Source of the DNA: Beroe forskalii
Lineage: Eukaryota; Ctenophora; Nuda; Beroida; Beroidae
NCBI GenBank assembly: GCA_011033025.1
Contig: WFMF01000044.1
Coordinates: forward strand, 1 to 64,000
Length of the DNA stretch: 64,000 nt
Direction: 5' to 3'
Shown here: one piece after another, positions 666 to 63,878 of the stretch
How positions within the stretch are numbered: the stretch's first letter is position 1
Layout of the letters: every line of letters starts with the position of its first letter
The notes under the pieces: model-generated
What the model was told of the DNA's origin: nothing
What the model saw: the letters and a program-made list of their open reading frames with translations, nothing else
The model's database searches: none
Made by a program: the position numbers and the translations under genes

Positions 666-49002
<48,337 letters not shown>

Positions 49003-50062
49003 CTGCGAGAATGGGGTTTATCAGGGTTTTAGGGTTTATTTAGGGTTAGTCGAACGACTATAGTCGTTGACCGTTATTCCTTCCGGCACAGGCATGATTT
49101 TACCAGGCAAATAACCGAAGGATGATTAAAAAATTCAAATTTTGAAAGCAAGTAGCAGGCCACTTCAGGATTTAGTTAGTCTCAAAATCTAAGATCAATC
49201 TGTTTGTTAATGTATAATGATCTAAAACAGCCAGCCGTAGGCAAAAAATTGTGAAAGTACATAACTGAGATTGTACTTGGATCAATTAGGACATTACTGA
49301 ATTATTACAACAGCCAGCCGCAGGCGAAAATTTTAAGGTTTTGTGCCTGAGTCTGCCTCTGAGATTAATCTGGTTAAATGTTTAATGATTAACAATCCTT
49401 TTCTTGCCATAGGCGTTTTCTATCGAATATCTATTATTGAACTATTACAAAAGTTTAAAATGGTCAGTATTTTCTCTTGTTTGGCATATCGCTTTTCCTC
49501 ACCTCACTTCCCTCACCTACATGTCATCACGAATCACCGTTATTCCCTCACCATACTTCCTCACCTTAATTAGTTAATTTCCACATCATACTTCCTCATC
49601 TTAGTTACTAAAGTCCCCTCACTTTACTTTCACTCAGTTAACGTCCCCTCACCTTAATTCTCCTCAGCCCATCTTCCTCCACTTCACTTCCCTTGATTCA
49701 CTACCCCTTCCCCTCACTTTACTTTCACTCAGTTAACGTCCCCTCACCTTAATTCTCCTCAGCCCATCTTCCCTCCACTTCACTTCCCTTGACGTTGTTA
49801 TTAGAACACATTAGTTGCAAATAAATACAATTTTTTATCAAATTTTTATTCGAGATTTCGGCACGGCACGCACGCTGCGTGTGCGTGCATCTTGACTTGA
49901 AAATCCCCTCGGTTTTGAAAAAATCCCCTCGGTAGCAGTGCTACTCCTGCTACCCACTTTTGGAAGGTAAGCATATTTTAATCATATTTTTTACGACTAT
50001 TTTTTCATCTATGACTATTTCACAATGTGTCATTGTAGTTGCTTCGTAAAAGCACCCATTAC
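49003..50062. other. Gap between truncated dynein and truncated claspin-like gene
   Basis: No exon of either gene was found here. Features are a duplicated ACAGCCAGCCGTAGGCAAAA element (about 49,227 and 49,310), a CCCTCACCTTAATTCTCCTC duplication at 49,630-49,790, and a GC-rich palindromic GGCACGCACGCTGCGTGTGC near 49,864. This interval should contain the rearrangement point proposed in the findings. Confidence 0.6.
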
Positions 50063-53000
50063 CTTGGCCTCATCCTTTTCTTTTTAAACTCCTTCCTCTT
50101 TTCCAACAAAGATCCGATCTTCTTCTTCGCTTTCTCAATCTTCTCTTTCCTCTTCTCTTCCTCTGAATCTGACTCATCCAAGACGTTTTGTTGCCGTCTC
50201 TTGACCAGCCTCTTCTTTCTCACATACCTGAAATGAACGTTTACACGTCGTAACATTCTAAATCCTAATTCACAAACAGAGAAAACATAATAAAACACAG
50301 AAGAATCCCAAAACATCTTCGATTGATCCCTTTACTTGGTGGAGAACAGACATTTGATCTCACATCTTATCTCGTAATAAATCAACTCCGAGCAAAGGTT
50401 AGGGTCAGGGTCGAGGTAAGAACCAGAATCAGGGTTTGGGACTGGGTTAGGGTAAGGACAGGTAGATGAGTGTCCTCGGATAAAACTTCCTACTACCCAC
50501 CTAGTAAGTCGTCTTAGAGAGTATCTACTGGGCTGCAAGGGGTCATCATCTTCGTTCGCAGAATCCGTCTCAAGTTCACGGATATGAACCTCGTCTGCTG
50601 ATGCCAACTGAGGATAAGGTCAGGTTTACTGCGAAATTTACTCGATTGAGAATTTTAGTAAACCCGTAAAACGTCATTGTAATTAATTATTACTATACTG
50701 AAGGACGCAAATTTCTCACCAAATCACTGTCAGTATCAGTGTGATAGTTCCTCAACTCCCCCTCCTCTTCCTCTTTCTGCCTTTCTTCGTCCTCTGAAGA
50801 TGAAACGTCTTCCCCTAGAAGAATCTTCTCAGCTCGTAACTCAACCTTGTCGGTTTCTTCTCCCTCCGAACCTGTAAATCGTAATGTACTAGCAGCACGA
50901 ATTGCTGAATTGTCTTTGGCGGGAATGCATGAAAAGTTTGCAGACGCGGCGCGCGCGCGTTTTGTGTAAATTACTCATTTTCCGCACAGAGGATAACTTT
51001 TTCTGTAGCGCGCCCAACGTAAATACAAATATCTACGCAAAAGTGTGCCATTTGGCAATTATTGCGCGCGTTTGAACCAATAAATAATCACTGCAGTCTA
51101 AATCAATGACGAACCGCTGTCTTCAGCATCCTCATTTCCATCCACGCCAGGCTCCTCTTCTTCACTGTCAGTTAACTCTGCTTCGATCTCTTCTTCTTCA
51201 TCCTTCATTTCACCCTGAAATTATCCTCGTGTTTGGTTCGGCAGGGCCGCAGGGGTTAGTTAGTGGGCATTCGAAAGGGTCGGTTCCGTGCTGATAGGAC
51301 AGTAACGTATCCAGGATTTGAAAGCAGGGCATGCAAAATATTTCCGGGGTAGTTATGAGGTCTTATTATCTATGATTAGATATTCTCTCAAAATTTGATA
51401 CCATGCAAGGTATTTTCTGGGTTTGCAATTCAAAGTCTGCATACCTATGGCTGCGTCACTGAATTTTGCATGAAATTCATTTCAAAACAAAACGATCTAT
51501 ATCCAATAAATTGTGTTTTGTGTCAATTAACGTATATTTTCTTACATGGAATTCCTCGTCAATCTTCTTCTCCATTTCGAGAGCAGTTCGTGCTTCCACT
51601 TTCTTTGCCAATATTTGGTTCTGAAATATTCAACAAAGTTGTCAGATAGTCACATCGAAATTACTCAAATCATTGCACCCACCTTGGTCAAGTATTACGC
51701 GTAACTTGAAAGTGAGAAATAATCCAATAATCCATTTAACTAATTGATAGTTGGGAACCTCTGCACGAAAATTCGAGTGAAAATTTCACCTCCCACTATT
51801 TCATCGTGGACTCATTTCCACTCTAAGCCTTAGATCAAAGTTTTTAAAAGGCCACAAATTACGGTCAGACAACCCTTGGGGTGGAACCAAGCATACTATA
51901 AAGAAACACTCCTTACTTTACCTTCAGTTGGTCTTGCAGCTGTTTCTTGATCAGCACACTTTGGGGTACGTTCCTCTTAGCAGCAACTTGATGCGTTATC
52001 AGTTTGTTAGAGCAGTTGTCAGGTTCGGAGGACACTTTGCTCGCCATTGAGATGTGCTTCTTGAACCTGAACGAGTTTAGTTTTTTTTTGTTTTTTTTGG
52101 CAAAATTCACAGGGAAAACTGTTCAAATGATAAATCATTACATATTCACATAAACAAATACTGAAAAAACAACTCATTTATAAGTATTTATTGAGTGAGT
52201 CATATGTGCTAGAATTAAGTGGTGTCGACACTCGACATGAAGTGAACCAGAGTTTGAGTGAATTAGTGTCAGGGTGGACGACTGAGTAGATTGGTGTTAG
52301 CAGTTACTAGAATACAATGGCAACAGTCACACATTTTAAAAACCTGTTCATGAAATTCCCCAAGTTTTTGGGCATGAAGAACTCGTCTCCTTGCGCAGAT
52401 AACCTCGGTACAGGACCCTCCGGTCCCTTCTTGGTAGGTTGAGAGGGAGGTTGTACGGCAGTTAGTTTGGGTATACGAGCCAGGCAGTCGCTGAGGAGAA
52501 CAGGTCGTGGTTCGTGGCGAGGCAGCTTGATCACACGCTCTAAGGATATGGACAATGTTAGTGCCATGTTCATTCAGCTGATCACGCGTTGTAAGGAGAT
52601 GGGGAATGTTAACTTGGTATATTTCGCCCATTTCTACATCAAATTCTCCATAAATAACTTATTGGCCCACGCACCATTTGCAAAGTTGTGTCGTAAAATA
52701 CGCTAATCTGTTGCACTAATTGCACTCGGCTTTACTTCGTACAATTATAGTAACATTGTCATTACGCACCGTTAGATTAGCGTTTCATCAACTAATACCC
52801 TGCCGATGGTATTTATTTTTTGTACCGTACTCCATTAATTCTCATTTCAATTTTTATAATACATTAATTCCCTTAGCTTATAGCTAGGTAAGCGCTTTTA
52901 ACCGAGAAAGTAGTTTAGTAGTGTATTTAAAAACGATCTTTTAAGCTAGTTAAAACGTTTAGAATTTCGATATTTTAACCGCTTATATCAAGTTTCATGT

Positions 53001-55309
53001 TTGAGATGAATGTTCCAGTAACTCAGTAACTTACTTATTGAAAGTACTTATTGAAACCGCGTTAAAACTACTTATTAGGAGCTATCTTTAACTGGTTTTA
53101 CTGGTTTAAAGTACTCAAGAGGTGGAATTTTAAACGAAATTACTGATATGAGAGAATTTTATTCAGAAGCTTTCGAAAATCTTGTGATTATCGTCGGTTT
53201 AAAGTATTTATATTTGGTGTTTGACGATCACTCACCACGCATCATTCTCTGTTTCTCGCTGACCAACTGTGAAACAGTATCCAGTTCCCCCTTCTTGCCC
53301 TTCTTCTGCTTCTTCTCACTTCCCTCAACTCCTTCCACTTGATCTTCAACCTTCTCTTTCTTGCTCTTTTTCTCCTTCTTTTTACCTTCCTTAACATCTT
53401 CTTCACCATCACTTAATTCTTCACTTGCTATCTCCTTTTTCTTCTTCTTCTTTTTCGTTTTCTTCTTTTTCCTATTTTCCTTGTTCTGACCACCCTCATC
53501 GTTTGAGCTGCCACTCGTTCTTGGAGGGTCGGAATCATTGTCTTTCTCAGATTCCGCGGGTTTGTCTGGTTTTGTGTCTGCGGGGATATTAAAAAGCTCA
53601 TTACAAAAATCAATAGAACTGCTTACATACAGGGTGTTTCATAAATAGTGTTACTATTTTGAAACTGTACTGAAAATTCAATGAGAGACTTGGCACTGAA
53701 AATTCAATGAGAGACTTGGCACTGATTATCATATATATAATTTGATGATGAGGGCCAGGGCGTATCCGAGTGCTTCAAAACTGACAGAGTGACTGATTTA
53801 TAGTACCTTTCGCTCGGTTGTACTCAGTACACAAGAGAATAAATCAGGCACACTGATCAGTTTTAATACGGGATGCCAGATACGCGATGGCCCTTAGTTC
53901 CAGCAATTATTCAATTCAATTCAATTCAATTATAGTATTGAATCACATATTATGTAAGTGTAGTACTTATATTGAATAATTCCCGAAAGGAGCTTATACG
54001 GTCATATTAGCTCGAATATGGTATAAATAACACCAGCTCCAATGCAGTCCCCTACTAAAATTTGAAAAATAATACCTTCTTATTTTGATTAAATACAATT
54101 CGTGAGTTTTGATCTTGATTTCAATATATTGAAATAAAGATCAAAACTCACGAATTTAATTTGATATAGAATTTTAGTACCTATCACGTCGGATAACTTC
54201 AATCAAATCAATGGCAGAGTGTTTTAATTGAACTGTATTAGGTATTGTGCAAGGATGTTTGACAGTGACGTCATTATCATGGATTACAATGAGGGATTGA
54301 TGACTTTAAATCAACAATACTTTTGCGCTCGGTATTTAGCACACAATTCAATTATATGTTTAGTAGTTTCCCATAAAATACTAGCTATGATAAGCGTCAA
54401 ATCATATCAAAAGGAAGGTCAACATTTGATTTACAAGAAACTAAAATACTGTGTAATTACCCATATTACAAACTACATTATCGGACATAATTATTACAGA
54501 CTTCAGTTTCACAGACCTAAAACTTCACGGACATTAATAATCACGCTGAGGTGCTCAGCATGACTGTAAAACTGTAATGTCCGTGATAATTATGTCCGAT
54601 AATACGTAATCAAGGTATTTCAAACAAACTGATTCATCACCTGTAAAGCAGTTCTCTTGCCATTCTTCAGGATCAGAATCTCCAAACACGTCCCTTGTCT
54701 TTTTCTTTCTGGAAGTCGGAAAATCATCATTGCTATCACTGTTATTGCCGGCCTTATCTTTATTTCTTTTCATCGGAAAGTCTCCATCACTTTCACTCTC
54801 ATGGTTGGTGAAAGTTTCCTGGGATGTTAGTCATTCTTACGGAATTGGTATTTCATCGATGTTTTAATTTTGTTGCTAGTTCCATCGGCAAGAGATATAT
54901 TTTTTGTATCGTGAGAGACTCAATAGAATTATAATAGGTTCGGAAAGTGGCCAGTGCATCAAATATCACGCTCTTCTCAACTCATCAAGATAATTTATTT
55001 ATTTTAATAAAGGCTGGATATTATTAATGACAAATTCATTGGATTATATACCTCAATCACAGCCTCTGACGAAATATCATCGTTAAGAAGTAACTCCAAA
55101 TCCTTCAAAAGTTTGTCACTTGCATCTGTTAAACCATTTGATTGCGAAGTAACGGTGTCTAATTTATGACTTTCTGCAAATTCATTTTCTTTTGGAAGCG
55201 ATCGTGCTTGATCAGTTGGATCTTTTTGGAGATTGTCAGTGATACAGTCATTTGTTGAGCAATTTTCATGTTCCTTAGTTTCTACTTCCATAATGTTTGT
55301 AGATACCAT
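50063..55309 (-). CDS. CLSPN: Claspin-like checkpoint mediator, N-terminal part (ten exons, 3' end missing)
   Basis: Exons are at 55052-55309, 54641-54818, 53236-53577, 52344-52539, 51922-52066, 51546-51620, 51115-51214, 50720-50871, 50501-50607 and 50063-50227; phases checked for the first joins agree. The protein is acidic with Lys-rich blocks. It has LVSEKQRMMRERVIKLPRHE, resembling claspin's SETQRLIRESALNLPYHMP, then NRFKKHIS (like LKQRFWKHA) and VLIKKQLQDQLK (like the LKAKLQEAMK helix), then Glu-rich stretches. Claspin stabilises replication forks and mediates ATR-to-CHK1 signalling in the nucleus. The last exon (KKRLVKRRQQNVLDESDSEE) ends in a good donor, CCAAG|GTAATG, but no later exon exists before dynein. 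Low complexity limits certainty; another acidic nuclear protein is possible. Confidence 0.6.
52540..53235. other. Intron with a copied exon edge, otherwise no gene
   Basis: At 52,566-52,610 GCTGATCACGCGTTGTAAGG plus AGATGGGGAATGTT repeats the acceptor edge of exon 52344-52539 (CTTGATCACACGCTCTAAGG). The remainder is AT-rich and featureless. Confidence 0.65.
53578..54640. repeat. Intron with two palindromic MITE-like elements
   Basis: Positions 54,085-54,164 form a near-perfect hairpin (AATTCGTGAGTTTTGATCTT and complement). Positions 54,477-54,603 form another (ATTATCGGACATAATTAT and complement, with inner TTCACGGACATTA). A 32-bp direct duplication (GAAAATTCAATGAGAGACTT) lies at 53,670-53,725. 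Confidence 0.75.
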
Positions 55310-55624
55310 TGTTTCATTCCTAACTTCAAATATCAGTTAACTCCATTTAAAAATGTATCATAACAGGTTATGGGTAATAAATTTTAAAGTAATGCAAACA
55401 ATAATTAGGGATAATACTTAGATTTCTTCTAACATCAAAAGTTATGAGGAACTTGAAAATAAATACTGAACAGCAATCTGCAGAAATATTTAAAGCAAAC
55501 ATATTATGAAAATCAAATATCAATCAAATCCGATAACAATCAAGAATCCATCTATCAACCACATAACTAACTCATGGATTCAATAGCCTTGAATGCCAGG
55601 CCAGGAAAAACTGAAAACATTCGT

Positions 55625-56476
55625 TCATTTCAGTCCAGACCACTGAAGACTAATATAGGACACATTTTCACCATCTACTAATGCTAATACTCCAATTTTA
55701 CGAACTGAAGATGCTAACCGACTTATAGATAACAAGTCACATGACCTCACAGTTGAGTCAGAGCAACACACTTTAACCACAAAATATGCATGATACACCA
55801 ATGGGTCCCCAGGGTATGATAGGAAATCACCACCAAATTTATCTCCTACTGTGGTCTGATACTTTCTTCTGCTCAAATCATGTAAAACTAAAGCACGTTT
55901 CTTTTCAAAATCACTCAATACAATTTTGTCTATGATATTGTAATTCGAAGTCCAAAACTGAGGCAGCTGACGATGGAATATCTTGTGTAAATGGTAGGGC
56001 AGATTATCCAGATCAATATCTTTTGTGAGATCAAGATGGGGTGGCACTTCAACAGGGTCGTCAACGAATTCTTGTGACTTCTGAAATATACTCCTCTGGA
56101 GATATTCGTTTTGTTTTGAATATGAATCTATGAGCTGCGCCTCAAACTGTTCTTCATTGCAAGCAGTTGGCAGTGCTTCCATCCTGATAAGTTTGGCTAA
56201 TCCCATTTGAGTCAAAATGAATGCCTCTTCCTTCATGATTTCAAGAGGAAGCCCTAAAACTTTGTTTTGCCTGACTTTTCGAGACAAAGCTCCAGTCAAT
56301 TTCCCTATGATACCAAATTTAGATCGAATTTTCATAATGGCATCAATATCCCAAATGAAATAGGAAGAGCCGACATAATGAATATCAAATTTTTGAAATT
56401 CCTCTGTGTCTTTGTCAAAGCTATGGCTATTTCTTGTATTCTTGTTAACAATAGTCAGCAATCCAGTCAATACCAT
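55625..56476 (-). CDS. TSEN34: tRNA-splicing endonuclease subunit Sen34
   Basis: Catalytic subunit of the nuclear tRNA intron endonuclease that cuts the 3' splice site of pre-tRNAs. A single-exon frame of 283 residues, close to the usual animal length of about 310. The C-terminal nuclease fold is clear: GDKFGGDFLSYPGDPLVYHA, ASSVRKIGVLAL, and the family-typical ending VSYISLQWSGLK. The catalytic Tyr221, His229 and Lys260 are all in place. The N-terminal half (EAFILTQMGLAKLI and so on) fits the Sen34 N domain. It lies 315 bp upstream of the claspin-like start on the same strand. Codons are AT-rich, unlike the dynein exons on the left. Confidence 0.92.
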   Translation of the reverse strand: MVLTGLLTIVNKNTRNSHSFDKDTEEFQKFDIHYVGSSYFIWDIDAIMKIRSKFGIIGKLTGALSRKVRQNKVLGLPLEIMKEEAFILTQMGLAKLIRMEALPTACNEEQFEAQLIDSYSKQNEYLQRSIFQKSQEFVDDPVEVPPHLDLTKDIDLDNLPYHLHKIFHRQLPQFWTSNYNIIDKIVLSDFEKKRALVLHDLSRRKYQTTVGDKFGGDFLSYPGDPLVYHAYFVVKVCCSDSTVRSCDLLSISRLASSVRKIGVLALVDGENVSYISLQWSGLK

Positions 56477-58600
56477 TCATACAATAAAAATATCTCAATT
56501 AGTTAATTATTAAAGTTATATAGACAACTCTTGGTTACAAGTAGGAACAGCTTCATAATTTCTCAGAATCTGTTACTAATCATTATTAATTACTCTCTGT
56601 GTACAAAATTCAAGTACCTATAATAAAATCATAGCAGTTTTTATCATACACGAATTTTAGGTAACATGTCAGATCTAAGGCTATCATAAAAGTAAAATAT
56701 ATATCAGAGTTGAGTGGTCTTAATGATAGCTAAAAACTGACAATAAGGTACAATATATGATAGCAGAGAACAAAAATCTATACTTCAATATTTTATATAT
56801 GTACCCAGGTAAAGTCTAGGACATACCTTTATAGAATAATCAAACTTTTTATAGTGTATTGATCATTTGACATCATTGAAATTATTGGATAGAACAATCG
56901 CCATTATAAAAAAGATCTTCTAAATGGGTAAAAATTCGAAGAATCATGTTTCAGAAATGATGTTTCTGTAAGAAATGACTTAAAAACTTCGAGCAGCTTG
57001 ATTTTAATTGGATTGATGTCTATTCAAAACCCATAGCACCTGCATAATAATACAATACCAGATGCTTTCTATGATGCAGAGCCTTTTGTTGGGAATGATA
57101 TAAAAGCAATAGTTTTAGCAAGAAGTGATATTTTATTCCTTTACCACTAGAGTTTGAGTCTTCTTGATGTATCTAATTCTGTATGACATTTCTTTCACAA
57201 CCATCTTTTCATCTAGATTATAGTGTGAGATTATACAGCAAAATAGTGCTAGTTTCTAAAACCTTAAAGTCATTTCAAGATGCCTCACTTTGCCTACACA
57301 TACATTTTCCATTTCATTTGTATTTCATATACTCACTAGGGGTAATACTACCTAACTTTGAATCTATGATTTTTCATACCTTAGGGCCTGCCTTAAAACT
57401 GCAGTGTCCTGTGTTATGTTTAAATGTCCAGGCTGACATGGTGTATGACTCTAAATTCTAATGTAGTAGGTACTTTTAGTAAGTACTTGTGCCTATTGCA
57501 TTTGGCTGCTTTAAGACCAGCATATGCCAATTTTGAGGGTATTTAAGAACACTTTCGACCATTTCAGTTGAATACAATGTCTATTTTTACCCTTTTTCAC
57601 AATTTTAAACATAATTTCTGTTAAAATATATAATTAATTACCCTTATATTTAGTCTTCAATGGGAGGCCTTTTAACAAATTTCAAATTTGTCTTGGTGCT
57701 CACCCTCAGCAAACCCCATAAGCCTCTTATCAAGAATGCAGTGGCTGCTTTCAAATCATTACCATAATTCAATGAAAAAACTGTTGAACTTCTATTGTTT
57801 ATCCAACTTGCAATTGAGCCAATTTTATAAAAGTTTGGTCATTTTAGTGAAGCTGAAAAAGCCACTTTTACTCTAATTTGCAGATTCCCAGCCAATTTTC
57901 AAAATTTCCCACATGGCTATGCTAGTGAGTTTTACATAGTATTCTTTGAATGATCTTTGACCTAATCTGCTGGCAAGCATTGACTTCCTTCACTTTCTGT
58001 TTGAAGCCATGAGTGTTGGTGGAATTCCAGACATGTGTGGTCCAGGACTGGGTTCTGCTCTCAGCCAAGGTTATCCTTCATAGTCAGGTGGCCTGTTCAC
58101 TCAGGAGTTCACGCCCTTAGCCTATTATTATCATTATTATTATCAAATCTAGACAGCATAAACAAATATACCTTTAGCCTAGCATACCAGGAAAGTCTCT
58201 ATACTCAGCATGGCTGCCACTGGCCTGGTTGATTAAACTGACTACTGCCATTTTACTAAGACTAAGACCACACTAACCCCACATCTTTTTACTTTCATCT
58301 TCTTTATTCTTACTTTCACATTTACCTAGAACTAAGTTAACTTGTAATTGATGATGATACATGTCCTTTCCTGTTTGATAAGATAAACCAATCTTCCTAT
58401 TAGTATTATAAAACTTAGCTGAAAGCATGAATTTGGGATAGGGGTTTGCTAGGATAGCCTGGATGTGTACCAACATTTTGGCAATCCATAGGTCTGTAAG
58501 CTACTAGTGAAGCAATGAGACACAACAAATAGGGAGTACAAAAGGGATAACAATCTTGGTAACGTAGTCCAGAATAGTCTCAACATTAGCCATGTGTGGC
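56477..58600. other. AT-rich intergenic stretch, no gene recognised
   Basis: Small open frames (for example plus 57,183-57,461) have no family signature. An ATTATTATCATTATTATTAT microsatellite is near 58,121-58,143. Confidence 0.5.
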
Positions 58601-59100
58601 CTCTGAGCAAACAATTTGGCCATTCCTAAGAGACATATAGAGCCATAATTTTTATCAGGGGCTCCAAAAATTTTTGAGCCCTCCTGGCACAACTTTTTGG
58701 CCCAAATGGGCTCAAAATTTCTGGAGGATCCAATCAAAAATAAGATGTGGGCTTTATTGTGGATTTGAGGAGGTTTTTTATGGGCTAAAATAGCCAAACA
58801 AGGTCCAACTCGATTATAAATTGGTTTCCTCATAACTTTCAACCTAAATGATGCACAAAAAAGTTTGAAGCTGATTCCTCGAAAATTGTGGCCATTCTGG
58901 CCAAAATAGACTAACTGCCACTTTAGAGCCTGCCATTTTTTGTCTGATTGTGACACAGCTTGCTGAGGCAAATGAATGCAATCAAAAGCCCTGTTTTTGC
59001 TGCAAGGTCCACCAAAATGTTTGAACCTCCAAACCATCCTGCCCAATGCCCAATCTTATATATATTTTCGTAAGAGCACGTGAATTATGTCTGTCTGTGC
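58601..59100. repeat. Dispersed repeat related to 8,700-8,830
   Basis: A 180-codon minus open frame at 58,504-59,046 covers repeat-like sequence. The segment AAAAAGTTTGAAGCT ... TGTGGCCATTCTGGCC matches AAAAAGTTTGAAGCT ... TGTGGCCATAATGGCC near 8,755-8,795. The open frame is therefore more likely a relic or chance than a gene. The shared family shows both ends of the window come from the same genome. Confidence 0.55.
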
Positions 59101-59986
59101 GGGCGCACAGTTTAAATTTGAGCTTGCCATGAAAATATCAAGAGAAACGAATGCAGAGTGGAGAAAAGAGGTGCCGTTGCTATGGAAACCAATTTAAGTG
59201 CACGTGCAGATTATCATCAGTTCTATGCGAGTGCTTTCTATTACGCAACTACTTTTAAATGCTGCGCTTTAGTTTTTGAAAATTTGACGTTTCCTTCACT
59301 TCAAAATTAAGATCTCAGGATGGAGAATGGATATAACTTGAGTAACGGAGGATAAAGGATTGTTATCATAAAACTGTGGTAGAGTTCGGTCGATTATCAA
59401 TGCTTAGTCGGTGATAACAGTAGTAACTGTAATTTTGAAATTGAACGTTGAGAGCAATCTAAGGTTTACAAAAGTGTACAATTTATTCGAGTTGAATATA
59501 GGTGAAGCAGATTACGAAGAATTGATCCTGGCCAGGATCAATGTGAACAAAACAAAGTTGTTCAATGTCAGTATGAGAATCAGTTGTCAGAGTTGACAAC
59601 ATCCTGCGGAACAAAAACGGAACAAAAGTCACATGGTTCAGCACAACTGAGACTAATAATTGTCGAAATATTTTTCACTCTGCTCCTTCATAAAATTCGT
59701 TGCTCAATAACTATTGATTTGATTGCAATTTTTTGATGCAGTAAAAAGTATCCGATCAATTTGAATGGTAGTGTTCAAAATTTGCGAACGAGGTGCTGCG
59801 TAGCAGCGCCGAGTGAGCTGTGTCTGCAGGCCCAACGGGCCTGCTAGTGTTTCATAAAATATGAGGCCTGAGCCTACTCCCCTCCCTTGACAGATGAACT
59901 AGGTTATATTTTCATGATTTACTTGAATATCATATGAAACAAAATAGTTTCTTGTTCAGTTTGCTTAACAACTTACCACTCAGATT
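59101..59986. other. Intergenic, upstream of secreted-peptide gene
   Basis: No gene recognised. GC-richer hairpin-like GCTGCGTAGCAGCGCCG and CAGGCCCAACGGGCCTG occur near 59,790-59,850. The peptide gene's promoter probably lies here but no confident element was identified. Confidence 0.4.
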
Positions 59987-60217
59987 ATGTTCAAAACAAC
60001 ATCAGTTAGTGTTGTTCTCACAGTTCTATTCCTTGGAACATTTCTCATAGACATTTCCCTTGGAGAAAGTCAGAGTGTTGGAGTCAGATGGTTCCATGAC
60101 ATGGCCCGACAGAAAGCAGCAAATGGGAATGCTGAGATGCAAGAAGAAAAGGTCACTGAAAACAAGGCTGAGGATCTAACAGATGATTTCCTAGGATTTC
60201 TATCTGTTGAGGACTAG
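59987..60217 (+). CDS. Small secreted protein, 76 residues, unknown family
   Basis: MFKTTSVSVVLTVLFLGTFL starts a clear signal peptide, with likely cleavage near residues 25-28 (ISLGES). The mature part of about 49 residues is charged and cysteine-free: VRWFHDMARQKAANG, then acidic NKAEDLTDDFLGFLSVED. There are no dibasic sites that would mark a multi-copy neuropeptide precursor. The frame is complete within one exon and followed by AT-rich sequence. I do not recognise the family. Confidence 0.65.
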   Translation: MFKTTSVSVVLTVLFLGTFLIDISLGESQSVGVRWFHDMARQKAANGNAEMQEEKVTENKAEDLTDDFLGFLSVED

Positions 60218-60949
60218 ATCATAGTACAATTTATTTGCCAATGACTAATATGATTATTACAGTGGAAGAAAAATTCAGGATTAAGATAGCCATAGAAGCA
60301 TTAATATGGTATTATGGTAACATGTAGCACTGTCCTAGCTTTTCTTAGGGGATGTGCAGAGACTTCACATCACTAGAGATCTATTCCCTCACATAACATA
60401 GTTTATGTCAAAAGTGTTAAATGATGAAAACATACAAAATGATGACAATATTCAAGATCATATCATCATTGATTCATTGGGCATATTTCATTACAATGTG
60501 ATTGAGTTTAATGAAATCATTAGTGGTACCGAATTGACCATTGTTGGTCCCTAAACACATATTCATTATAAATTATGAAAGTTCTGAGGCATTAACTGGG
60601 GCCTGAAAAATCTGGATGAGTAGATACCTTGTATATAGCTTTAAGTTCTCCAGATCCTTTACAATGACCTTGTTCTGTTCTTAGAATGTGAAATATTTTA
60701 ATTCATGTTGTACATCATTCAAAAGTATTTTTAATTGATCTTGCATGAACTTTGTGATTTACTTTGGTTGTAAAGAAGTGAAAAATGTGAGCCTGTCATT
60801 TATCAATAACAAAAATACATAAAAATACAAAAATTCAATTCCAATTTACATGATACAACAGCATGAGCAATTGTCCTCAAATTAGTTTCAAAATATAAAA
60901 ATAAACATAATATAAAATTGACCAAATAAAATGGAATAAATACAACTAG
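60218..60949. other. 3' flank of the secreted-peptide gene, no gene
   Basis: AT-rich sequence with AATAAA-like words near 60,930-60,940, consistent with a 3' UTR or intergenic DNA. Nothing else recognised. Confidence 0.45.
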
Positions 60950-61990
60950 TTTGCGACCTAGGCAGCACAATTCGTCAGGGATCCCTAATTTTCAAATTGA
61001 CCTTATTACATTTGCTTTGTCTGACGTTGACAGACCCTCTCGAGAATCAGCGCCGCGCGCGCTTCGCGGCTGGCGTCAGCGGGTCATACATCGTACGTAC
61101 TTCCTAAGCCCGCATAGGTGTGTGTACGCGCCGCGCGCTTCCCTGGGGAAGCGCGCCGCGCGAGCCACACAGGGATATACGTGTTTAGCAACGTACGTAC
61201 GGCAACATTTGCTTATCTGACGACAAAGCAAGTCGTGACGCGAGCGCGAGGAGTCTGGCAACACCTGACAAAAAACGCTGTGCGCGCGGCGAAGGGTTAA
61301 AGCTTAATCTAACCAGATCATTGTAATTGTAACCAGATCCCTAGTTTTACGCTTACGCGCGCGCGGCGTAGCTCGGAGTTCCTTACCAGGGCGTCACTTC
61401 GTCTTGGTTTGAGCTCAAACCAGGACGTTCCTAAGCCCGCATGAGTGTGCGCCGCGCAACGCGAACGCGCAAACAGGAAGTGCGCCGCGCAACACAAACA
61501 GGGTGTATACTTGTTTAGCAAACCATGAGGACGAAGTGACGCCCTGGCCCTGGTTCGTAGTTAACAAAATTATAATATGTATAAGATGTTCCTAAGCCTG
61601 CATAAGTGTCTGTACACGCCGCGCGCTTCCCTACTCTCCGCCGCACAATCATCGTTTTCCAGTCGTGCATTGTGCAATCATTTTGTCAAGCATTGTTTTA
61701 CCTTTCCTAAGCCTGCATGGGTGTGTGTACGCGCCGCGCGCTTCCCTACGGAAGGAAGCGCGCCGTGCAACGCAAACAGGGCTACTCGTGTTAAGCAAGC
61801 TTTGCCCCCTAACGCGCGCGCCATTGGTGGCCGTTGACAGACCCTCGTGAAATCACTGCCGCTTGGCGGCTTGCCCTAACGGCTAACCAGGCCCTGGTTA
61901 CACGCACGGAGTACTCGGTGCGGCAAGCGCTAAAGTCATTTCGTGACGCTCCTGGTTAGAGAAACGCGAAACCAGGGTCCAGGTTATGGC
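60950..61990. repeat. CpG-rich cluster of a TACGCGCCGCGCGCTTCCC repeat
   Basis: Four imperfect copies of CCTAAGCCCGCATARGTGTG followed by a GCGCCGCGCGCTTCCC palindrome lie near 61,102, 61,430, 61,588 and 61,707. Inverted ends ACCAGGGCGTCACTTCGTC at 61,385-61,403 and 61,530-61,548 outline a 164-bp MITE inside. The block is very GC-rich against an AT-rich background. The open frames in it are repeat-driven and not genes. Confidence 0.75.
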
Positions 61991-62645
61991 GAGTTGCAAT
62001 GATCTCTTTTTTCATCTCAGATCGTCAAATCTGGATGCGTAGTTTAATTTCACAAATTCATAGTAGATGGATGCTAGTGTTCACTCATGGTTTGGACGAA
62101 AATTGATTGTGAAAATTCTCATAGAACTCTGCAATTTTTGCCATCTCTCTAGTGTCTGCTTGAATTATGCCACTCTTTCCTATTTCGGCATTTAAATGTG
62201 GGCAAATGAACGTTATTTTCCAGAACTTAAGTATTGAATTCACCATGTACTTAGGATAATTTATATACCAAATTTTGGTAAATTTTGTTGGGATTAAATG
62301 AAGAAACTTTTGCAAAATTTATCAATCAAAAGTTGATCAGCAAGTAAATCTTCAAATCTTGCATTTCATGTTCTATTCTACCTCACTTACCTTTATTGAC
62401 CATACCTTTATCGACCTTCCAAGAGTACATGACATTGTTAACCTTTTTTCTGGTCTGTCAATTTCAAAACAAGATTTACAGTGATCAAAAAAGTTGATGT
62501 GATATCTTTAAAATGGAAATTTTTTTGGCTTCTAGACAATTTTCATTGTATAATTATATCAACAATTAAAGAATAAATAATAATTAGATAGCATAGTTAG
62601 ATAGGAAAATCCTCAGCTTTGCCTATGACATAGGCCACCCCAAAA

Positions 62646-62805
62646 CCATCAGTCATGAGTTATTCATATCACACAGCTTGGGGTGGCTTGGAGGGAGTTG
62701 GTTACCAATGCTTGACAGACGTCAAGCATTGGTAACCAAGCCTCCATTCCAGCCACCCCCACAAGCCACCCCTGCTGTGATTATGAATAACTCATGACTG
62801 ATGAC
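62646..62805. repeat. 160-bp foldback MITE
   Basis: Arms ATCAGTCATGAGTTATTCAT, CTTGGGGTGGCTTGGAGG and GGTTACCAATGCTTGAC meet their inverted copies at a 4-base loop (AGAC, near 62,717-62,720). Confidence 0.9.
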
Positions 62806-63038
62806 TTTTACTTCACTCTAATTAATTAGTTAATTATTACAAATTATTAGTGACTGTATGTTCTTCACTGTAAATCATTCTTTTACTCAAGGTGAAAATG
62901 AAGTGCCTAGTAAATGTAGTAAGTGTAGCAGTTTTAAATTTTGTTTCTTTGGTCTCACAATAAGGAACAGGTTATACTGTGTGTATAACCAAGCAGATTG
63001 ATCAATTAATTAATCCTATTGAGTTACTGATTTAGTTG

Positions 63039-63878
63039 ATGGAGGATCCAGACAATGGTGATAATGAAGATGGGGCACCACCCCCTCCTTCATTGGTTGA
63101 ACCTATCGATGTCCTGAACTACATCAAACGTTTGATTCCCGTTCTGATGGAGGAAGATCCCATGGAAATAACTCCTCAGTTTGAGGTAATTGATTCATTT
63201 ACCCATAATATGTGTCACAACTTATTGTTAAATTTATCAAATTTGAGAATCTTAGTAGCCAATCATTATATCATTACTCTATTTAATTAAATTAATATTT
63301 TGAAATTTGCAGAAAGAACTCAAGACCCCGGCAGTGTATGGAATGATTGAGAAGTTCATTGGTGAACCACAAGTTCGAGCTCTTCTTGTGAACCGTCTTA
63401 CCAAAGATAGTGAAGATCCAGAGAGTGATGTTCCACCAGAGATAACATATGTCATCACAGTAGACATCCAGTACATGTCTAACAAGTTAGTCAAATTGTA
63501 CTGATATTGAGTATTTTTTGCAGATTGATATTATGCAGTTGAAATTGTATTATGGTTGTCATCATATAGGCTTACGTTAAATATTATGTTAAATACATTT
63601 ATGTTAAATATTATGTTAAATATTATGTTAAATATTATGTTAAATATTATGTTAAATATTATGTTAAATATTACATTCAATATTATGTACATTGAAACAT
63701 CATTTCAGGGTGATGACTGTTGCATTTATCAAACGTGGAACCCATGTGGAAAGCACCAAGCAGTTGACAAAGCAAGTGCAAACTATACATCTGTCTCAGG
63801 AGAGCACTTATGAATCTCTTCATGCCTTGATCTCTTCTGCTATCATACCAATCTTCAACAGCTTTGTTACCAAGAGTG
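63039..63878 (+). CDS. DYNC1H1: Cytoplasmic dynein heavy chain, first three coding exons (N-terminus)
   Basis: Exon 1 (63039-63185) starts MEDPDNGDNEDGAPPPPSLV and includes NYIKRLIPVLMEED. Exon 2 (63313-63485) encodes MIEKFIGEPQVRALLVNRLT and ITYVITVDIQYMSNK. Exon 3 (63709-63878) encodes VAFIKRGTHVEST, HLSQESTYESLHALISSAII and NSFVTKSGK. Phases are 0, 2, 1 with GT-AG introns. The order and spacing fit the start of DYNC1H1 (KHLRKLVPLLLEDG, DPQVHTVLVERS, SYNINIDIHY, LAFIKRTP, SPYETLHSFISNAVAPFF). This is the dimerisation end of the tail. It continues beyond the right edge. Codons are AT-rich, in contrast to the minus-strand dynein exons. Confidence 0.85.
63570..63690. repeat. TTAAATATTATG 12-bp repeat
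   Basis: About nine copies lie in the intron between plus-strand dynein exons 2 and 3. They are in frame with a chance open frame (LNIMLNIM...) that is not coding. Confidence 0.9.

Follow-up and report, generated by a model that had tools for sequence, protein, structure and literature searches.

Allele-like inverted exons in a ctenophore dynein gene suggest a haplotype mosaic in the genome assembly

Exons 20-26 of a dynein heavy chain gene are duplicated as an inverted pair in the assembly of Beroe forskalii, in which the other parts of the gene that we searched for are single. We consider it probable that two dynein alleles are patched together in the contig carrying them, C514, with one piece of ~27 kb reversed, and that no real inversion took place. 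The window, i.e., the whole stretch of DNA analyzed here, covers positions 1-64,000 of this contig of 803,785 bases; the assembly of the animal amounts to 216 Mb in 1,134 contigs. The features discussed below are collected in Table 1.

Table 1. Features of the window and of the sequence to its right on C514
Feature	Position on C514	Strand	Remark
Dynein exons 27 onward	612-46,156	-	Human residues ~1134-3137; gene leaves contig start
Left arm, dynein exons 20-26	46,259-49,097	-	Inside window
Dynein exon 20	48,877-49,002	-	Final minus-strand exon before break
785-bp dispersed repeat	49,188-49,972	.	Between dynein arm and claspin-like gene
Claspin-like exons	50,059-55,336	-	Weak similarity to human claspin
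tRNA intron endonuclease frame (TSEN34-like)	55,625-56,476	-	Pfam PF01974, E 3.1e-16
Dynein exons 1-3	63,039-63,185; 63,313-63,485; 63,709-63,878	+	Window's right end
Dynein exons 1-26	63,039-75,725	+	No stop; 1,123 residues encoded
Right arm, dynein exons 20-26	69,739-75,969	+	Right of window

A dynein gene on two strands

Dynein exons were read by spliced alignment, using as the query a human DYNC1H1 sequence. Judged by its sequence, the split gene is that of the cytoplasmic dynein 1 heavy chain. Among the best 120 of 1,287 public matches, the highest, at 63% identity, was to the coral Pocillopora meandrina, and these 120 were cytoplasmic dynein 1, rather than axonemal dynein, wherever the source gives the type. 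A further match (69% over 60% of the query) was to an unnamed protein.

The original prediction had placed a last minus-strand dynein exon at the break and the start of the gene, in three exons, on the plus strand at the right end of the window. Spliced alignment confirmed both: the minus-strand dynein consists of exon 20 onward, with more exons leading leftward from 49,002 to ~612, near the start of the contig, and the plus-strand start has the three exons listed in Table 1. The missing exons, expected to the right, were indeed there: exons 4-19 lie beyond the window on the plus strand and belong to a run of exons 4-26 that continues to 75,725. The interval between dynein and the claspin-like gene had been thought to be free of exons, and no exon was found in 49,003-50,058. 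However, the two halves do not abut at a single point near residue 780, as had been proposed. Exons 20-26 are present in both halves, and exons 1-19 account for 811 residues in the spliced models.

How many copies of this gene does the assembly hold? Two queries were run against the animal's own 216 Mb, an 873-residue N-terminal dynein sequence, beginning at residue ~250, and residues ~1141-1843. The N-terminal query found 28 places, all of them on C514, with exons 20-26 hit twice. Hence, chance is not an issue for dynein. The second query found 31 places: 14, with identities of 72-97%, belonged to the C514 minus strand, and the other 17 were on other contigs at 24-51% identity, as other dyneins should give. 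A DHC_N1 family search showed no evident second gene of the same kind. Two complete dynein paralogues, the alternative raised earlier, are therefore unsupported: exons for residues ~250-811 and ~1141-1843 were each found once, the latter at high identity only on the minus strand of C514.

How the two arms differ

The arms enclose a 20.6-kb loop of unrelated sequence, and neither reaches a contig end. AG/GT borders are kept in both copies at all seven exons; the non-coding parts of the arms differ by substitutions and many indels. Intron 22 is ~3.3 kb longer in the plus arm than in the minus arm, and the extra block (C514:70,774-74,042) is mostly an imperfect tandem repeat. Over 312 codons, the two copies differ by 20 synonymous and 0 nonsynonymous changes (dS 0.105, standard error 0.024). 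Such an all-synonymous outcome has a probability of 6e-14 if every change is neutral and of 2e-7 if ten of the 20 are neutral. The copies thus differ in the way that alleles of one functional gene would.

Perhaps the contig nevertheless records a real inversion, in which staggered breaks left a copy of exons 20-26 at each end and disrupted one allele, with an intact homologue sustaining the animal? Staggered single-strand breaks are described as leaving inverted duplications that flank the flipped block (PMC3355041). As such an event requires, single-copy DNA is duplicated in inverted orientation at both ends of the block on C514. A single flip brings all dynein exons onto one strand; as originally predicted, turning ~49.1-76.0 kb around puts exons 1-26 on the strand of exons 20 onward. 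However, a dead allele at this dS should hold amino acid changes, and the drift expected of a broken copy was absent from the 312 codons. Given 20 synonymous and no nonsynonymous changes at a dS of 0.105, a broken, inverted, and decaying allele is unlikely. Moreover, the search of the assembly turned up no further intact copy either of exons 1-19 or of the part encoding residues ~1141-1843. Inversions 2h and 2q of Drosophila mojavensis, as presented in PMC3355041, are likewise flanked by inverted duplications, but the duplicate there suffered deletions, whereas no exon is missing and no amino acid altered in either C514 copy over the parts compared. We regard a staggered-break inversion as very unlikely.

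A fixed split is another way to explain two intact pieces. One gene would comprise exons 1-26 and the other exons 20 onward, on opposite strands, and their products would be joined by trans-splicing. The dynein pieces are indeed encoded apart on opposite strands, and both are intact, in frame, and constrained. Dynein heavy chain introns are reported to be trans-spliced in Giardia (PMC5224939), where dynein likewise comes from separate pieces; the C514 pieces differ in sharing seven exons, and their joined transcript is hypothetical. This overlap would be superfluous for a trans-spliced pair, and allele-like inverted pairs are also seen where no joining is called for (the genes on C441, C790, and C784, below). 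From the sequences compared, trans-splicing of such a pair seems very unlikely, and we give equally little credence to the broader proposal that dynein would be two fully constrained, trans-spliced opposite-strand genes with exons 20-26 in common and that overlapping inverted halves would be frequent in essential genes.

Inverted pairs at other loci

Inverted pairs were found at four loci of the assembly: C514, C441, C790, and C784. Of the further contigs with dynein hits, the analysis covered C441 and C790, both carrying axonemal dyneins; their pairs were noticed through paired hits and are therefore no random sample. The C441 gene is a palindrome (994-12,601 versus 14,966-27,703) lying <1 kb from the contig start, with arms of ~11-13 kb that are 82-95% identical by piece. 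Its exon A (733 codons) carries 51 synonymous changes and 1 nonsynonymous change, and exon C (131 codons) carries 11 and 0. For exon B, the 462 aligned codons hold 28 synonymous and 3 nonsynonymous changes, the latter in codons 4-5; the open-frame count for this exon, 28/19, runs past an indel. The synonymous counts of the three exons give a dS of 0.105. On C790, a partial inverted copy (6,334-10,479 versus 17,287-20,312) lies upstream of a plus-strand gene that is continuous to at least 27.5 kb, and the end of the minus copy seems frameshifted. This pair has 18 synonymous changes in 362 codons (dS 0.079), in stretches picked as protein-identical, so that zero nonsynonymous changes was forced; like the PMPCB pair described below, it was kept out of the homogeneity test.

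Two non-dynein genes, the clathrin heavy chain gene and EEF2, served as controls. The clathrin gene forms a head-to-head inverted pair on C784 (69,694 bases), centered at ~47.2 kb, with its exons within 28,583-66,030. Seven of its nine full exon pairs were compared: in 435 codons there were 18 synonymous and 0 nonsynonymous changes (dS 0.065, standard error 0.015). EEF2 was single and collinear on C208. One of the two controls therefore showed an inverted allele-like pair. The dS values of C514, C441, and C784 did not differ (P 0.16), while that of the PMPCB pair was zero. On C317, an EEF2-related GTPase also showed three exon pairs with near-equal scores (195,282-196,689 and 238,953-240,395); these lie ~43.7 kb apart in direct, not inverted, orientation.

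Might true palindromes simply be common in this genome, C514 being one of them, with the proteins kept alike by selection or gene conversion? Four loci with inverted pairs in one assembly would fit, and palindromes have been reported in the Folsomia candida assembly (PMC5490193) and on human and ape Y chromosomes (PMC7953838). However, partial, nonfunctional copies should gain amino acid changes, and the dynein arms show none; frequent gene conversion should equalize silent sites too, and these differ at a dS of ~0.1. A real duplication would also mean that the gene is broken, since only one N-terminal and one middle dynein part were found. This reading seems unlikely to us.

Neighbors of the joins and a mosaic of haplotypes

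Beyond 75,969, the contig carries exons of PMPCB (mitochondrial processing peptidase) on the plus strand at 77.3-100.4 kb. Exons for residues ~52-287 are also present on C569 (C569:345,995-350,145 versus C514:77,201-80,210); those for residues ~288-469 were found on C514 only. Exons 3-5 are identical on the two contigs over 531 nt, and 0 changes in ~125 synonymous sites has a probability of 2.5e-6 at the dynein rate. Hence, the pairs in this assembly are not all of the same kind. The C514 gene is frameshifted in the first common exon, near 77,372, and its homology to C569 starts at 77,201 and does not take in a possible PMPCB exon 1 on C569. PMPCB, a second patchwork gene at the right join, suggests that the joins are those of the assembly. 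The C569 region also contains ~1.3 kb of extra sequence with a 301-aa frame that may resemble a retroelement ORF1.

The gene next to the left join is named claspin-like here on account of a weak similarity to human claspin. It had been described as ending in an unpaired splice donor at 50,063. Its last frame instead runs (as KKKRMRPR) into an in-frame TAA at 50,059-50,061; a donor there is still conceivable, in that AAG/GTAATG at the frame end could serve as one. The C-terminal exons of claspin, predicted to lie to the right, did not appear: the human claspin C terminus had no match in C514:1-144,000, where PMPCB follows the break. That C terminus against the animal's own genome and a Pfam MRC1 search likewise gave no match, both being searches that lacked a working positive control. 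These searches thus gave no sign of a 3' half of claspin that would complement the break, though one may be present in the genome. The TSEN34-like gene is an intact neighbor within the flipped block.

The 785-bp repeat beside the left arm has internal tandem units of ~170-200 bp and many copies genome-wide (at least 205 matches, dynein and self included). No second copy was found in C514:1-144,000; on C569, a related copy precedes PMPCB by ~1 kb. A repeat of ~105 bp lies near the right end of the flipped block. No element common to both breakpoints was found, and a transposon-mediated inversion was rejected.

How would a mosaic of two haplotypes produce this arrangement? The animal would be highly heterozygous, and the assembly would retain one copy of the regions tested. 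Exons 20 to the end would come from one haplotype, on the left, and exons 1-26 from the other (49.1-76.0 kb), so that a ~27-kb piece of one haplotype would have been inserted backward into the sequence of the other. The double occurrence of exons 20-26 would reflect the overlap of the two haplotype pieces in that region. Flipped back, the piece would yield one ordinary gene plus a seven-exon haplotype overlap. We infer that the two copies represent alleles, that the assembly made the joins near 49.1 and 76.0 kb, and that each chromosome has one ordinary dynein gene.

The purely synonymous divergence, the single state of the other dynein parts, the C441 palindrome, the clathrin pair, and the patchy PMPCB all argue for a haplotype mosaic. 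Several observations argue against it. Two joins are required. C514:1-144,000 contains no N and hence shows no plain scaffold gap, which counts against a simple scaffolding error. The C514 arms stop short of the contig end and enclose other sequence, the plus gene on C790 is continuous alongside its partial inverted copy, dS is uneven (lower on C784 and C790 and zero in PMPCB exons 3-5), and EEF2 has no inverted pair.

The original prediction was borne out in part, both as an observation and in its interpretation. An assembly flip, one of the options it offered, is close to the mosaic that we favor. Another of those options, a true inversion disrupting two essential genes, is opposed by the seven-exon overlap, the 20 all-synonymous differences, the pairs elsewhere, and the failure of the claspin part of the prediction.

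Haplotypic duplications are described for assemblies of heterozygous genomes, in which, as here, two allele-like copies of one gene stand separate in one assembly (PMC10548655); on C514, by contrast, both copies share a single contig in inverted orientation, and the gene gives the appearance of being split. Erroneous scaffolding can create artificial palindromes, according to PMC7953838. In the account given in PMC5916493, the 2013 assembly of Adineta vaga contained palindromes of homologous copies, inverted on one scaffold like those of C514, that were undetected in A. ricciae. Scaffolding artefacts are discussed as a possible source of palindromes in both of these papers. The A. vaga palindromes comprise whole gene blocks, whereas C514 has seven exons of one gene and an unrelated loop. 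Our literature search recognized no description of the present dynein arrangement, which is no proof of absence.

If the split were true, this would be a rare essential animal gene built from two loci. Purely synonymous divergence between the arms provides a simple test for such cases, as it indicates alleles rather than a broken gene. Should C514 prove to be an assembly mosaic, the breaks in genes, the numbers of genes, and the rates of rearrangement taken from this genome would need correction: an inverted allele-like pair is also carried by one of the two control genes.
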